From: Akkermansia muciniphila
GTDB lineage: Bacteria > Verrucomicrobiota > Verrucomicrobiia > Limisphaerales > BJHT01
DNA length: 64,000 nucleotides
Direction of reading: 5' to 3'
Assembly (NCBI GenBank): GCA_945861535.1
Contig: CAMAUZ010000011.1
Location: 1-64,000, forward strand
Shown: piece after piece, positions 9,132 to 50,110 of the stretch
Layout: every line of letters starts with the position of its first letter
How positions within the stretch are numbered: position 1 is the stretch's first letter
Notes under the pieces: generated by a model
Told to the model about the DNA's origin: nothing
Database searches by the model: none
What the model saw: only the letters and a program-made list of their open reading frames with translations
Translations under genes and position numbers: made by a program

Positions 9132-10145
9132 TCATTCCTTCGGCTCGGGGACGGATTTCACGAGTTCCTGAATCACCTTCACCGTGTCGATGCCCTCCGC
9201 TTCGGCGGCGAAGTTGGGGATGAGGCGGTGGCGCAGGACGCTGGTGGCGCAGGCGCGAACGTCGTCGGTGGAGACATGGAAGTTGCCGCGCAGGATGGCG
9301 CGGGCCTTGCCGCCGAGGAGGAGGTTTTGCACGGCGCGCGGGCCGGCGCCCCATTGCAGCCATTTCTTCGCGATGTCGGAGGAGTCGGGTTGGCCGGGGC
9401 GGGTGGCGCGGACGAGCTTCGCGGCGTAGGCGGCGACGTGATTGGCGACGGGGACTTTTCGGACGATGGCTTGGTAGCGCAGGATGTCCTCGGCCTTCAT
9501 CACGGTCTTGAGGTCGGGCTTCGCATCCACGGTGGTGGCGAGGCCGATCTGGACTTCCTCGGCCTCGGTTGGGTAGCCGATGTAGATGTTGAACATGAAG
9601 CGGTCCTGCTGCGCCTCGGGGAGCGGGTAGGTGCCTTCCTGCTCGATGGGATTTTGCGTGGCGAGGACGAGGAAGGGCGGGGCGAGCTGGTAGGTTTTGT
9701 TGCCGACGGTGACTTCGCGTTCCTGCATGGCCTGGAGCAACGAGGCCTGGGTCTTGGGCGGGGTTCGGTTGATTTCGTCGGCGAGGATGATGTTCGCAAA
9801 AATCGGGCCGGGGAGGAACGCCACCTCGCGTTTGCCGGTGGCGAGATTTTCCTCGATGACATCGGTGCCGGTGATGTCCGAGGGCATCAGGTCAGGCGTG
9901 AACTGGATGCGTTTGTATTTCAGGTCGAGGATGCTCGCGATGGTCGAGACGAGGAGCGTCTTGGCGAGGCCGGGCACGCCGACGATGAGCGCGTGGCCAC
10001 GGCTGAAGAGACAGGTGAGCACGTCATCAATCACATCCTGCTGGCCGATGATGACCTTGCGGACCTCGCGGAGAATGTCCTCGCGGGCCTGCCGGAGCTG
10101 CTCGACGCCTTGGAGCGTGTCGGTGGGGGAGGCGGTGTTTTGCAT
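9132..10145 (-). CDS. MoxR-family AAA+ ATPase
   Basis: 337 residues from the ATG at 10145; a TTG at 10157 would add four. Walker A is GVPGLAKT, Walker B is ILADEINR, followed by the MoxR signature TPPKTQASLLQAMQE, sensor 1 ATQNPIEQEG and an arginine-finger region PEAQQDRF. It is first gene of the minus-strand operon DUF58 - BatA/VWA - VWA - DUF4175 - DUF4159. MoxR ATPases act as chaperone-like remodelers, often inserting metals or cofactors or maturing surface complexes; the client here is not evident. Confidence 0.95.
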   Translation of the reverse strand: MQNTASPTDTLQGVEQLRQAREDILREVRKVIIGQQDVIDDVLTCLFSRGHALIVGVPGLAKTLLVSTIASILDLKYKRIQFTPDLMPSDITGTDVIEENLATGKREVAFLPGPIFANIILADEINRTPPKTQASLLQAMQEREVTVGNKTYQLAPPFLVLATQNPIEQEGTYPLPEAQQDRFMFNIYIGYPTEAEEVQIGLATTVDAKPDLKTVMKAEDILRYQAIVRKVPVANHVAAYAAKLVRATRPGQPDSSDIAKKWLQWGAGPRAVQNLLLGGKARAILRGNFHVSTDDVRACATSVLRHRLIPNFAAEAEGIDTVKVIQELVKSVPEPKE

Positions 10146-10212
10146 GAAAATGGCCAAGGGTGACTGGCAACGGAAGGACGGGCTTCAACCAATTCCGGTT
10201 TGGGCGGGATCA

Positions 10213-10486
10213 CGGGCGCATCTCAGTTTCCGGCAACGATCGGTGCGCGTTGGCGCAGTCCCGCAGGGACGACCGAAAATAGCCCAGCCCTTCAGTGCTG
10301 GGCGTATGGTCGGGAAACCGGAAAGTCCCGTCAGGGACGAAAGCGGCGAGATGGCGCACGGTTTCTTTCGTCCCTGCCGGGACTGGCTTCGCTACCGACA
10401 CGGACCCTGAAGTGCTGGGCTATTGTCTTTCGCCCGCTGGGCTGGGGATGGGAACCAGAGGGCGTGCAATAAACTGAGATGCGCCC
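10213..10486. repeat. Three-layer nested palindrome in a divergent promoter gap
   Basis: The outer arms are 10213-10229 and 10470-10486 (GCGCATCTCAGTTT). The middle arms are 10278-10303 and 10405-10424 (AATAGCCCAGC...GCTGGGC). The inner arms are 10320-10343 and 10365-10389 (AAGTCCCGTCAGGGACGAAAG). The 590-base gap between moxR and the DUF1549 gene has no convincing gene; its remainder (10490-10735) must hold the promoter of the plus-strand pair, but no clear -35/-10 was recognised. Parts of this cassette recur at 49925-50060. Confidence 0.85.
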
Positions 10487-10735
10487 CGAAATCACACGGT
10501 CAGGCGACCGAGATCGCAGCATCTGCGCGCGGGCTGCACGGCGCACGACGATGGGGGAAAGGAGGGGAGCGCCGGTTTCAATACGGGCCGGAACGGAGGA
10601 ATCGGGACACGCCGCTTTGGAAACCGGTGCCCCGTCAGCGCGCGCCTCCCCGCTCACCAGGTGGCGCCCGGACCGCTGTAATCTCGGTGAATCGCCGCGA
10701 GGTGCCGGCGTCGGACACCGAACTTTTACATCCTC

Positions 10736-13345
10736 ATGCGATCTTTTCTTTTCTCGGGTTTGGTGGCGTTGGCGATGGTGGCCGGGGCGCAGGTTGTGGC
10801 GGGGGCGGGCAAGGCGGATTTGCGCCCGCCAAGTGAGCGGTTTGCGAGTTTGGCGACGGCACCGGAGCCCAGTTTCCGGCGGCAGGTGGTGCCGCTGCTG
10901 AGCCGGGCGGGGTGCAGCGGGCGCGAGTGTCACGGTTCGTTTTCGGGTCAGGGAGGCTTTCAGCTTTCGCTGTTTGGTTATGATTTCGACAAGGATTTGA
11001 AGGCGATGACGGTGAATACCAACGGAGGCGAGAAGCAGGTGCGCATCGACCGGACCAATGCGGCGAAGAGCCTGCTGCTGACGAAGCCGACGATGGAAGA
11101 GCATCACAAGGGGAAGAAGCGGATCGACAAGGGATCGTGGGAATACAACCTGATACTGAAATGGATTCAGGGTGGCGCGAAGGGCGATGTCGAGGCGACG
11201 GGGGAATTTGACCGGCTGGAGATCACGCCGAAGGAGATCGTGTTCAAGGCGACGGGCGGGGCGGTGCAGCTCAAGGTGCTGGCGTATTGGAAAGATGGCG
11301 CGGTGGAGGATGTCACGCAGCTCACGCGGTTCCGCTCGAACGATGATTCGGTCTCGACCGTGTCACTCACCGGCGTGGTGACGGCGAAGGAGAAGGGCGA
11401 CACGCACATCGTCGCGTTTTATGACAACGGCGTGCAGCCCATTCCCGTGATGCTGCCGGTGTCGGAGCGGACGGGGCCGCGGTATCCGAAGGTGGCGGCG
11501 CCGACGAAGGTGGACGAACTCGTGATCGCCAAGCTGCGCAAGCTGGGGATCGTGCCGTCGGCGCGCAGCACCGACGCGGAGTTTCTGCGGCGGGTGACCA
11601 TTGATCTCACCGGCGGGCTGCCGACGGTGGAACAGGTGACGAAGTTCCTGGCCGATCCGTCGGGCAACAAGCGGAGCGCGAAGATTGATGAACTGCTGCG
11701 CACGCCGGCGTATGCGGCCTGGTCGGCGACGAAGCTGTCGGATTATCTCGGAAACAATGCCGGGCAGTTGCGGGCGCAGGGCGGGTCGCAGAACTTCGGC
11801 GCGAAATTCAGCCGGCAATGGTTCGACTGGCTGTACGAGCGGATTTTGAAAAACGAGCCCTACGACAAGATGATGGAGGGCGTGGTGCTGGCGACGGGGC
11901 GCACGCGGCCGGACCAGACGTACGAGGAATATGCGCGGGAGATGTCGTCGTATTTCCGCACGGAGAATCCGGCGAAATTCGCCGAGCGCCCGAACATGCC
12001 GTATTTCTGGCAGCGGCAGAACTTGAAGAAGCCCGAGGACAAGGCGCTGGCGTTCGCGCACAGTTTCCTGGGGGTGCGCATCGAGTGCGCGCAGTGCCAC
12101 AAGCATCCGTTCGATCAGTGGACCCAGCAAGATTTCAAGAAGTTCCAGGCGTTCTTCGAGGGGATTGATTACGGGTCGAAGGCGGCCAAGGACGAGAAGG
12201 TGACGTTCGCGAGCCTGACGAAGGAGTTGAAAGACGCGGTGCCGGCGGATCCGAAGGGTGGGAACAATCAGAAGGCCACCAGCGCGGAGTTCGACAAGCG
12301 CGTCGGAGCCGGCGAGCCCGTGCCGTGGCAGGAAGTGATCGTGTCCAACAAAGGCAAATCAAAGCTTTCGGAAAAGGAACTCGCCAGGCTCAAGGCGACC
12401 AATGCGAAGCTGGACGGGCGCGTGTTGACGCCCAAGATTCTCGGCGGCGACGAGGTGCTGCTGAACGAATATCCGGACCCGCGCATGCCGCTGATGCAGT
12501 GGCTGCGGAGCGCGAAGAATCCCTATTTCGCGCGGGCCTTTGTGAATCGCGTCTGGGCGGGCTACTTCGGTCGCGGACTGGTGGAGCCGGCCGATGACAT
12601 GAACCTGGCAAATCCGCCGGTGAACCGGGAGCTGATGGATTATCTGTCCGATGGCTTCGCGGCGCACGGCTACGACATGGCGTGGCTGCATCGCGAGATT
12701 CTGACCAGCGACACGTACCAACGAAGCTGGAAACCCAATGCGACCAACCAGCAGGACGAGAAAAACTTCAGCCGCATGATCCCGCGCCGCCTGCCGGCCG
12801 AGGTCGTGGTGGATGCCATCGCCCAGGCCACGCTGAGCGCCGAGCGCGTCGAGAAGTTCGTGGCGGACATCGAGAACCGCGCCATCGGACCCAATGCCAA
12901 CGCGGGCGTGCTCAAGGGCGGCAAAGGCGGCGGCAACTATTCGCTGGCCATTTTCGGCAAGCCGATCCGCGAGACCAACTGCGACTGCGAGCGCACGACC
13001 GACCCGACGATCCTGCAGACGCTCTTCACCCGGAATGATCCCGAGATGTTTTCCGCGCTCGATCAGGCGCGCGGCGGCGCGGCGTGGATCGAGGAACTGC
13101 GCAAGAGCGTGGCGGGCAACCAGGCGCGCAAGAAGGGTGATACGGCCCCAGCGCCGGCGACCAAGACCCTCGACCTCGACCAGGTGATTCCCGAAGTCTT
13201 TTTGCGCACCGTCAGCCGGCCGCCCACCGCGGACGAGATGAGCCGCGCCAAGACCGACATCGCCGCCGCGAAAAACCCGGTCGATGGCGTGCGCGAACTG
13301 CTCTGGGCGATGCTCAACACCCGCGAATTCATGGTGAACCACTGA
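10736..13345 (+). CDS. DUF1549/DUF1553 surface protein with cytochrome-like head and Ig-like domain
   Basis: 869 residues. A signal peptide (about 1-25) precedes a cytochrome-like segment with GCSGRECHG and SLFGYD, typical of this PVC family. A bacterial Ig-like (BIG2) domain follows at about 160-245, then DUF1549 (about 258-470) containing the second heme-like motif CAQCHKHPFDQW. DUF1553 spans about 580-865. Such proteins are exported and very common in Planctomycetes and Verrucomicrobia, nearly always next to a DUF1501 gene, as here (67 bases downstream). The biochemical role is not established; the CxxCH motif suggests electron transfer or heme attachment. Confidence 0.92.
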   Translation: MRSFLFSGLVALAMVAGAQVVAGAGKADLRPPSERFASLATAPEPSFRRQVVPLLSRAGCSGRECHGSFSGQGGFQLSLFGYDFDKDLKAMTVNTNGGEKQVRIDRTNAAKSLLLTKPTMEEHHKGKKRIDKGSWEYNLILKWIQGGAKGDVEATGEFDRLEITPKEIVFKATGGAVQLKVLAYWKDGAVEDVTQLTRFRSNDDSVSTVSLTGVVTAKEKGDTHIVAFYDNGVQPIPVMLPVSERTGPRYPKVAAPTKVDELVIAKLRKLGIVPSARSTDAEFLRRVTIDLTGGLPTVEQVTKFLADPSGNKRSAKIDELLRTPAYAAWSATKLSDYLGNNAGQLRAQGGSQNFGAKFSRQWFDWLYERILKNEPYDKMMEGVVLATGRTRPDQTYEEYAREMSSYFRTENPAKFAERPNMPYFWQRQNLKKPEDKALAFAHSFLGVRIECAQCHKHPFDQWTQQDFKKFQAFFEGIDYGSKAAKDEKVTFASLTKELKDAVPADPKGGNNQKATSAEFDKRVGAGEPVPWQEVIVSNKGKSKLSEKELARLKATNAKLDGRVLTPKILGGDEVLLNEYPDPRMPLMQWLRSAKNPYFARAFVNRVWAGYFGRGLVEPADDMNLANPPVNRELMDYLSDGFAAHGYDMAWLHREILTSDTYQRSWKPNATNQQDEKNFSRMIPRRLPAEVVVDAIAQATLSAERVEKFVADIENRAIGPNANAGVLKGGKGGGNYSLAIFGKPIRETNCDCERTTDPTILQTLFTRNDPEMFSALDQARGGAAWIEELRKSVAGNQARKKGDTAPAPATKTLDLDQVIPEVFLRTVSRPPTADEMSRAKTDIAAAKNPVDGVRELLWAMLNTREFMVNH

Positions 13346-17285: not shown

Positions 17286-17407
17286 TCCAGCCCGCCAGTG
17301 CGGGCGGCATCCTTGCCGCCCGTTTCCCGCGGCGGCGCGGGGTGGCGGAACTAGGAACACGGGGCAGGGATGCCCCGTGAACTGGCAGGCAAGGATGCCT
17401 GCCCCAC
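17286..17407. repeat. Palindromic cassette, family F, copy 1
   Basis: Consecutive hairpins GGGCGGCATCCTTGCCGCCC, GGGGCAGGGATGCCCC and GGCAGGCAAGGATGCCTGCC lie in one block. The opposite-orientation copy is at 40224-40361. Together with family E it fills the gap between the four-cysteine gene and the TauE/SafE gene. Confidence 0.85.
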
Positions 17408-17467
17408 ACTCACCGCGCGTTCGGGAAAACAGTTGCCCGCCCTTCCCCCCGTCGGCAGAAACGCCCG

Positions 17468-33950: not shown

Positions 33951-34327
33951 TTGATGTCTGGTTTTGAACTCCAATGGCCGTTCTTAGACAGCGTGGGCTT
34001 ATAGCTGCAGCGAAACTGGATTCAAAGCTCAATCCGGGCCGTTTCCGGATAGTAACATGGGTGAAAGCAGGTTCGGTTCCATGCGGGACGGGGACCTTGA
34101 GTCCGAAAAATGGGAGAGATGGATTCGGGGCGCATCTCCGTTGCCGGCAGCCAACTCCCCATCTCACTGCCTCAGTGCGCGCTCAAGTTGCGGCTGAATC
34201 CCGTCGGGATATCCGCTGCGGGCACAACACGCGGAAGGAGCGTATCCAATGTCGGCAAGGGTTTGGTCCCTCGCCGCGCCCGTAATTTCCCATTGCTCAA
34301 ACCCCACCGCCGGGCCACAACCGCGGA
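33951..34327. other. Intergenic region upstream of the esterase gene
   Basis: No gene is seen. It contains GCGCATCTCCGTTGCCGGCA, which resembles the outer arm of the nested palindrome at 10213, here without its partner. It lies between divergently transcribed genes and must contain both promoters, but no clear promoter was identified. Confidence 0.4.
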
Positions 34328-40223: not shown

Positions 40224-40361
40224 GTGGGGCAGCCATCCTTGCCTGCCGGTTCACGGGGCATCCCTGCCCCGTGTTCCTGCGGCCGCCGGTCGTAAGTTCG
40301 CCGCGAGAAACGGGCGGCAGGATGCCGCCCGAACCGGCAGGCTGGAAGCCTGCCCCACAGC
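40224..40361. repeat. Palindromic cassette, family F, copy 2
   Basis: The same hairpins as at 17286-17407 but in opposite orientation: GGCAGCCATCCTTGCCTGCC, GGGGCATCCCTGCCCC, GGGCGGCAGGATGCCGCCC. It lies between the divergent LytTR and prfB genes. The rest of 40021-40508 contains no recognised gene. Confidence 0.85.
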
Positions 40362-40508
40362 ATCGCGGCCTCCACACTTCTGATCGTGCTTGCGGGATTG
40401 CGCCAACGCGTACGGATCGTTGCAAGCGACTGCGCCTCCGCCCTCGCACCCTTCCCCACCGCAGAATTTCCTTTGGTCCCGCCGCCCTTCCCCTTTAGCT
40501 TCGCGCCC

Positions 40509-49828: not shown

Positions 49829-49924
49829 AGGGACGGGGACCGATGGCAGAAAAGTGGGGGCAGACAAATGGGGAAGCGAGGAAGTCTCGCATCTGCCGCG
49901 GCACGGATGCACTTCAGTTTATTG

Positions 49925-50060
49925 CACGCCTTCTGATTCCCATCCCCAGCCCAGCGGGCGAACGCCAATAGCCCGGCACTTTAGTGCTGGGCTATTTTAA
50001 GTCGGCGTTGTGCGGCTGATCCAACGCGCCCCGACCGTTGCAGAGGATGAAGATTTCCCC
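49925..50060. repeat. Partial relative of the 10213 nested palindrome
   Basis: Contains CCCATCCCCAGCCCAGCGGG and AATAGCCCGGCACTTTAGTGCTGGGCTATT, both also in the cassette at 10278-10465 but in inverse order. Located after the YceI stop; the hairpin followed by TTTAAG could terminate that transcript. Confidence 0.7.
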
Positions 50061-50110
50061 CAGCGGCACCGATCTGTGCCCCGCACTCCGTTCCCCATTA
50101 TTCTGCGCCC

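Follow-up and report, generated by a model that had tools for sequence, protein, structure and literature searches.

A nested palindrome in Akkermansia muciniphila as a dispersed, two-layer mobile element: a miniature transposon shell around a REPIN-like dimer

Introduction

Three inverted pairs of sequence, set one inside another around a short centre, lie between two divergent genes of an Akkermansia muciniphila assembly (GCA_945861535.1, contig CAMAUZ010000011.1), raising the question of how many mobile units such a structure contains and which of them has carried the others. The window, meaning the whole stretch of 64,000 nucleotides that was analysed, holds this nested palindrome at 10213-10486. 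An original prediction, made from the sequence, had read the concentric layers as the repeated insertion of one palindromic cassette into the loop of another.

Two kinds of bacterial repeat are relevant here. REPINs, as described in part of PMC3116915, consist of two REPs in inverted arrangement and are linked to their own RAYTs. A portion of PMC3733652 reports that the Verrucomicrobium O. terrae has GTAG-REPs and that Acidobacteria carry Y1 genes with terminal repeats on both sides.

Architecture of the nested palindrome

All three concentric pairs were recovered by an inverted-pair search, comprising an outer pair at 10214-10229 and 10471-10486 (16 nt, 100%), a middle pair at 10267-10295 and 10407-10435 (29 nt, 83%) and an inner pair of 20 nt (95%; Table 1). 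Folded as single-stranded DNA, the nested palindrome reaches -87 kcal/mol, compared with a mean of -52.9 (sd 4.2; z -8.2) for 200 dinucleotide shuffles, none of which (0/200) was as good. Its placement between divergent genes was also correctly described, with a MoxR-type ATPase gene running leftward on one side and a PSCyt2/PSD1 gene running rightward on the other.

Two mobile units, a shell and a dimer, and not three cassettes, account for the three nested pairs. The shell is a miniature transposon (MITE) with the outer pair as its terminal repeat, and the middle and inner pairs together are one REPIN-like dimer of two-hairpin REP units. The hpA of the right REP unit has lost 5 nt relative to 15 of the 16 other full-length copies, the gap being shared by L073.

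Table 1. Features of the nested palindrome and its surroundings in the window
Feature	Position	Strand	Basis or remark
MoxR-type ATPase gene, left neighbour	9132-10157	-	leftward
Left copy of 9-bp target duplication (CGGGATCAC)	10205-10213	.	7/9 match with 10487-10495
Shell arm A	10214-10257	+	end pattern at 2 mismatches; arm past the end common with b-class L150, L156, L155, L159
Terminal inverted repeat of arm A, 21-22 nt	10214-10234		start of arm A
Left REP unit	10257-10302	-	full-length match to RF01687 (Acido-Lenti-1), 51.6 bits (gathering score 37)
Left REP unit hairpins and tag	hpB 10258-10270; hpA 10282-10303; tag TAG 10280-10282, before hpA		coordinates read from sequence
Interior: REPIN-like dimer, two inverted REP units and loop	10258-10442	.	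shell-free copies mostly start at element position 40-45
hpB' left, subterminal hairpin of dimer (left arm of inner pair)	10324-10343	+	95% complementary to 10365-10384
hpB' right, subterminal hairpin of dimer (right arm of inner pair)	10365-10384	-	inverted-pair search
Right REP unit, decayed	10405-10443	+	RF01687 15.6 bits, below threshold; hpB 10432-10442
Shell arm B	10443-10486	-	end pattern at 1 mismatch; full-length alignment
Terminal inverted repeat of arm B	10466-10486		end of arm B
Right copy of 9-bp target duplication (CGAAATCAC)	10487-10495	.	flank comparison of 70 shells
PSCyt2/PSD1 gene, right neighbour	10736-13345	+	rightward
Decayed short-form copy, reversed	49905-50070	-	left end at 5 mismatches; right border approximate

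Dispersal in the genome

A search of the window's own genome (7.94 Mb in 169 contigs) with the window element returned at least 83 match rows on both strands, many of them end to end; family copy counts are lower bounds, with 19-40 candidates scored per genome. Seventeen full-length copies, including that of the window, align from outer arm to outer arm and sit in unrelated flanks. Short forms of ~155 bp, in which the inner segment is absent and one central hairpin is retained, were also identified (L093, L099 and others). With one hairpin at its centre (AATAGCCCGGCACT/AGTGCTGGGCTATT), the second copy in the window appears to be a member of this family that has decayed and stands reversed. The original prediction had reported a recurrence in changed order at 49925-50060; the second place is real, and the change of order amounts to reversed orientation and the absence of the inner segment. 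In plasmid and phage collections, the nested palindrome had no match at the blastn level.

The fragmentation of the assembly into so many contigs might invite the suspicion of chance or an assembly artefact. This reading, whose probability is practically nil, is already refuted by the large number of copies, which are spread over different contigs and differ in their flanks, by their target duplications and by the occurrence of the same ends in other genomes.

Shell ends and target duplications

The shell end, GGGCGCATCTCAGTTTCTTGC, occurs at least 104 + 103 times in the own genome at no more than 3 mismatches, with 0 occurrences in a backwards-read control. Shells were sought in the window and 128 fetched loci, 129 sources from the own genome in all, as facing end pairs with at most 6 mismatches each, 90-420 bp apart, and 70 distinct shells with flanks were retained. 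Comparison of the two flanks of each shell gave an identity of 0.619 for length 9 and of 0.27-0.33 for lengths 5-8 and 10-12; a control that paired flanks across elements gave 0.28 (28.0%). A flank match of at least 7/9 was present in 35/70 shells, compared with 0.37% of control pairs; the flanks of the remaining 35/70 fell below 7/9, with no clear duplication. The window copy itself matches at 7/9. Flank agreement at length 9 and at no other length is the signature of a transposase with a 9-bp stagger.

The shell has dispersed as a single unit that duplicates 9 bp of target, and the window element, too, is mobilised in one block by its outer ends. A structure found everywhere as one fixed unit was the outcome that the original prediction had named as refuting stepwise nesting. 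Such a block is what the window subfamily displays, with 17 end-to-end copies and duplications outside the outer arms, but the wider set of shells does not.

A Y1 transposase was considered as the mover of the whole element and was excluded, because the shells bear 9-bp duplications and IS200/IS605-type enzymes are not known to duplicate their target.

Beyond the own genome, shell ends at no more than 2 mismatches were detected in at least 22 of 58 genomes, with 0 in the control. An unpaired shell end (4 mismatches), with no dimer seen, lies at 34128-34148 of the window.

A probable ISKra4-family parent

An exact-pattern scan of genome contigs yielded at least 97 stretches with shell ends; among the matches listed, nearly all titles were Verrucomicrobiota MAGs, a few being unspecified and one labelled Proteobacteria. 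Two 1.47-kb elements, from related Verrucomicrobiota MAGs, carry the shell's 21-nt ends, of which L243 is bounded by a perfect 9-bp duplication (tgcggcaca) and L220 starts at a contig end. Their 473-aa proteins score 233.5 and 209.7 bits, respectively, with the NCBIfam ISKra4 model NF033572, both passing its cut-off of 205. More distant copies (L413, L414, L415) have 9/9 duplications. A query with this ISKra4 protein found matches in 27 of the 56 genomes searched and none in the own genome.

The shell fits an ISKra4-type MITE in that its ends are common with an autonomous ISKra4 element and its duplication length equals that of the parent. Comparison of the arms past the terminal repeat with ISKra4 element ends gave best p values of 0.01-0.18 in 14 comparisons per arm, none convincing, lending no support to the arms as remnants of insertion-sequence ends. 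With the arms not convincingly matched, the tie between shell and ISKra4 consists solely of ~21 nt of end and the 9-bp duplication; parent-derived sequence inside the ends is not required of a MITE that shares ends only.

One further own-genome locus (L160:284-1446, C133) has 1163 bp between two shell ends and half a b-class dimer, a class defined below, at its start. As an autonomous parent it was rejected, having no clear flank match or duplication and no transposase seen between its ends.

The interior as a separate unit

The left REP unit matches the covariance model of Acido-Lenti-1 (RF01687). Acido-Lenti-1 hits of the own genome that exceed the gathering score number 85 and were grouped as 55 elements. 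The 30 paired elements comprised 17 with both shell ends, 5 with one end and 8 with none, that is, none at 7 mismatches or fewer; the 25 single hits comprised 1 with two shell ends, 19 with one and 5 with none, and a reversed-end control found ends in 4/220.

In most shell-free copies, from the own and other genomes, the match to the window element starts at position 40-45, and matches reaching the far side end at about 222-240; the border hairpins of the window dimer stand at element positions 45 and 229. The starts of L083 (33), L086 (36), L095 (8) and L033 (32) are exceptions, among which L086 and L095 may be decayed shells, as their matches extend into the arms. Only short pieces of the window element were matched by L405, L407, L409 and L412, and none of it by L408 and L404. 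The interior is separable from the shell.

Like a REPIN, it has inverted REP units at a fixed spacing: of the 31 cases in the own genome in which Acido-Lenti-1 hits neighbour each other within 500 bp, 30 are inverted pairs facing outward, and the distance is 144-156 bp in 27. For the tag beside the hairpin, which in a REPIN would be GTAG or GTGG, reading by eye gave ATAG for the window, GTAG for L402 and L102, GTGG for class b and CCAG for class d.

Y1 transposase genes and Acido-Lenti-1

Across the class, Acido-Lenti-1 had a match in at least 65 of 188 genomes, exceeding the gathering score in at least 41. Among the matches listed, two outward-facing pairs stood 600-700 bp apart, and both enclose an IS200-like Y1 gene (L403:590-1295 and L402:424-1356), bracketed by units over the gathering score. 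The order at both loci is hpB-hpA-hpB'-gene-hpB'-hpA-hpB, and the window dimer repeats it with a short loop replacing the gene. The inner pair, taken by the original prediction for a cassette of its own, proves to be the subterminal hairpins of the dimer, as seen in shell-free copies and at the two IS200-like genes. Three independent cassettes are excluded, since the inner pair belongs to the dimer.

The own genome has 9 Y1_Tnp matches, and four of these (L081, L132, L133, L134) are flanked by other two-hairpin repeats. No Y1 gene flanked by the window REP was found among them, the flanks of 6/9 having been inspected, or by motif scan at 24 Y1 loci in six further genomes, where L316 and L318 were the only loci with repeats of two-hairpin design. 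The IS200 model NF033573 was passed by L081, L132, L133, L134, L402 and L403, whereas with the RAYT model NF047646 (cut-off 80) L081 reached 26.1 bits and L134 19.3 bits, and L132, L133, L402 and L403 were unlisted. These Y1 proteins are therefore called RAYT-like. In design, the interior corresponds to the repeats found on either side of IS200-like Y1 transposase genes.

RF01687 is listed in Rfam as 'Gene; sRNA', and Table 1 of PMC2864571 marks Acido-Lenti-1 as likely RNA, classifications from which the interior might be taken for a structured RNA gene spread for its RNA function, with palindromes that serve the RNA. The 85 over-threshold hits in one genome, their outward pairing and spacing described above and the bracketing of IS200-like genes all argue against such a gene, which on the sequence patterns seen would be very improbable. 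Because Acido-Lenti-1 units bracket an IS200-like transposase gene in two relatives, this 'RNA' is probably a transposon end.

Different interiors in shells with the same ends

Sorted by motif, the 70 shells comprised 38 of class b (GTGGGGCAGGCATCC...), 26 of the window class, 3 of class c (CACCCGGCTTCAGCCGGGTG...), 1 of class d/e (CAGCCCAGGGC...) and 2 others, tallies that do not constitute a census, as the loci were fetched by similarity to two classes. Mixtures of interiors also occur in other families of the order, including class c in L170 and L171 and class d/e in L175, the last with a 9/9 duplication. Short shells without a REP-like dimer were present in other genomes (L219, L224 (132 bp) and L247 (119 bp)); in the own genome, an empty shell was not encountered.

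Past the terminal repeat, arm A of the window element is common to four b-class shells (Table 1; p = 0.001, the smallest value attainable with 1000 shuffles). No sharing was detected with L157, also of class b, or with L142, L149 and L146, and arm B had no significant between-class match in 15 comparisons. The sharing of arm A with b-class shells indicates that at least one arm was retained while the interior differs.

Could shell and interior nevertheless be a single MITE family, its REP an original part and its shell-free REPs truncated MITEs? Coxiella burnetii QMITE2 was so read: a part of PMC5896051 describes it as a MITE with terminal repeats, 7-9 bp direct repeats and a GTAG REP inside, whose small copies are REPs alone, lacking terminal repeats. 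Shell and interior do travel together in the window subfamily. However, unrelated interiors occupy shells that have these ends in common, IS200-like genes are bracketed by the REP unit at loci where no ISKra4 shell was noted, and the border hairpins are retained in shell-free dimers, making a single family improbable.

Interiors might also have been swapped by homologous recombination or template switching between palindromes, without REPIN transposition into shells. The partial sharing of arms is compatible with such exchange, as are the short forms, which resemble crossovers inside the hpA palindrome. It remains rather unlikely, given the little sequence common to the interior classes and an independent loop insertion, seen once (L111, below) and made by a MITE, not a REPIN.

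Some loci preserve older or incomplete forms. At 40224-40440 of the window, a b-class dimer (GTGGGGCAGCCATCC...CCTGCCCCAC) precedes a decayed arm A with its terminal repeat; this is an old shell of class b that the end scan, limited to 6 mismatches, did not pick up. A partial b-class dimer with no shell end nearby lies at 17300-17410. Elsewhere in the own genome, C18:15323-15812 (L066) holds two shells of different interior classes ~10 bp apart.

Nesting and mobility between species

Insertion of one palindromic element into the loop of another is seen directly at L111 (C4:115350-116250), where a 194-bp insert, its 23-nt ends matching at 21/23, sits in the loop of a window-class dimer. The insert is bounded by a perfect 9-bp duplication, ACGGCCGAC, and contains a 92-bp palindrome (88%), and its uninterrupted counterpart loop is present in L104 and L110. 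L111 is a real doll-in-doll event, one level deeper than that of the window. The inserted element (L111:341-534 on C4; 194 bp, 9-bp duplication) is a second MITE type with ends GGGTGYGAYTGAAAGTGGGTGAG, of which no further copy was found among the fetched loci.

The central idea of the original prediction, a palindrome placed in another's loop, is sustained in that shell and interior are separable, shells with the same ends hold other interiors, and a MITE occupies the loop of L111. For the window shell itself, insertion into the loop is something we infer, in a genome that yielded no empty shell.

Joined flanks of 13 sites were searched in the congeneric genome G001, with matches for 6 sites and none for 7. 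L157 and L336 have continuous empty counterparts there. L347 (C2:57636-57899) is a shell within a dispersed ~170-bp repeat that has many copies in G001, the 3 inspected being uninterrupted. For L064, L338 and L339, the right flank alone was matched. The shell end was absent at all 5/5 G001 loci checked (L157, L336, L064, L338, L339). At the window site in G001, the left flank is conserved to 10204 and no shell end occurs within the 4-kb locus; with the right-hand gene placed on a different contig, however, a clean empty site for the window element is lacking. The left flank of L157 (C14) itself carries a ~110-bp repeat, often tandem, with dozens of match rows in G001.

Discussion

The nested palindrome is a genuine mobile element of two layers, with dispersed copies. 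It is likely to be a non-autonomous ISKra4-type MITE, the shell, carrying a REPIN-like dimer of two-hairpin REP units as its interior. An ISKra4 transposase, now absent from the own genome, would have moved the shell in trans, and the interior would be what is left of a Y1 transposon after loss of the gene from its loop. This remnant may have entered an older shell by a Y1-type insertion, or two ISKra4 ends may have come to flank a dimer, after which the shell's transposase would have multiplied shell and interior together; other shells would have gained other REPIN-like dimers likewise. Within this scheme, the mode of spread of the shell is well supported and the cassette-in-cassette arrangement is supported, whereas the entry of the REPIN, by insertion or enclosure, is put forward as conjecture.

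A broader proposition, which seems slightly more probable than its negation, is that Verrucomicrobiota ISKra4 shells recurrently acquire dimers of different Y1 lineages, which then spread by a DDE-type transposase with their own enzyme dispensable, and that the Acido-Lenti-1 'RNA' is the terminal unit of such Y1 transposons, not an RNA gene.

QMITE2, as described in the part of PMC5896051 considered here, is the nearest precedent found. The likeness, one of layout, lies in a REP inside terminal repeats, short direct repeats and REP-only copies; the differences lie in the ISKra4-family parent, the several REP classes in shells with the same ends and a dimer interior linked to Y1 genes. REPINs and RAYTs, as portrayed in parts of PMC3116915 and PMC2817692, share the inverted REP pair, the possible long hairpin and Y1 genes flanked by units, but the present units have two hairpins each, the Y1 proteins reach the cut-off of the IS200 model but not that of the RAYT model, and the dimer sits in a shell of DDE type. 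From ISKra4-family MITEs, represented here by the ends and 9-bp duplication of the full-length elements found, the shell differs in that its interior is a different mobile palindrome and not an insertion-sequence remnant. The left REP unit matches the Acido-Lenti-1 covariance model end to end, yet it behaves as a repeated transposon end, unlike the sRNA gene under which the family is filed.

TIRYT/TIRtrons with double-palindromic ends, in the portion of PMC3733652 considered, resemble the present Y1 genes in being flanked by longer, partly self-complementary repeats, with Acidobacteria among the hosts. Going by this description, those repeats may include, and be identical to, Acido-Lenti-1. 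In the open-licence literature, no paper was found on interior exchange, an ISKra4-family parent or the Acido-Lenti-1 link, and QMITE2 was the only MITE-with-REP precedent noticed.

If the proposed reading is true, a DDE-type shell carrying several REPIN-like classes would constitute a second route of REPIN spread, and its 9-bp marks would let each shell event be counted and dated. Re-examination of the curated RNA family RF01687 as transposon DNA is suggested, and such a re-reading of Acido-Lenti-1 would alter RNA annotation in Verrucomicrobiota and possibly in Acidobacteria.
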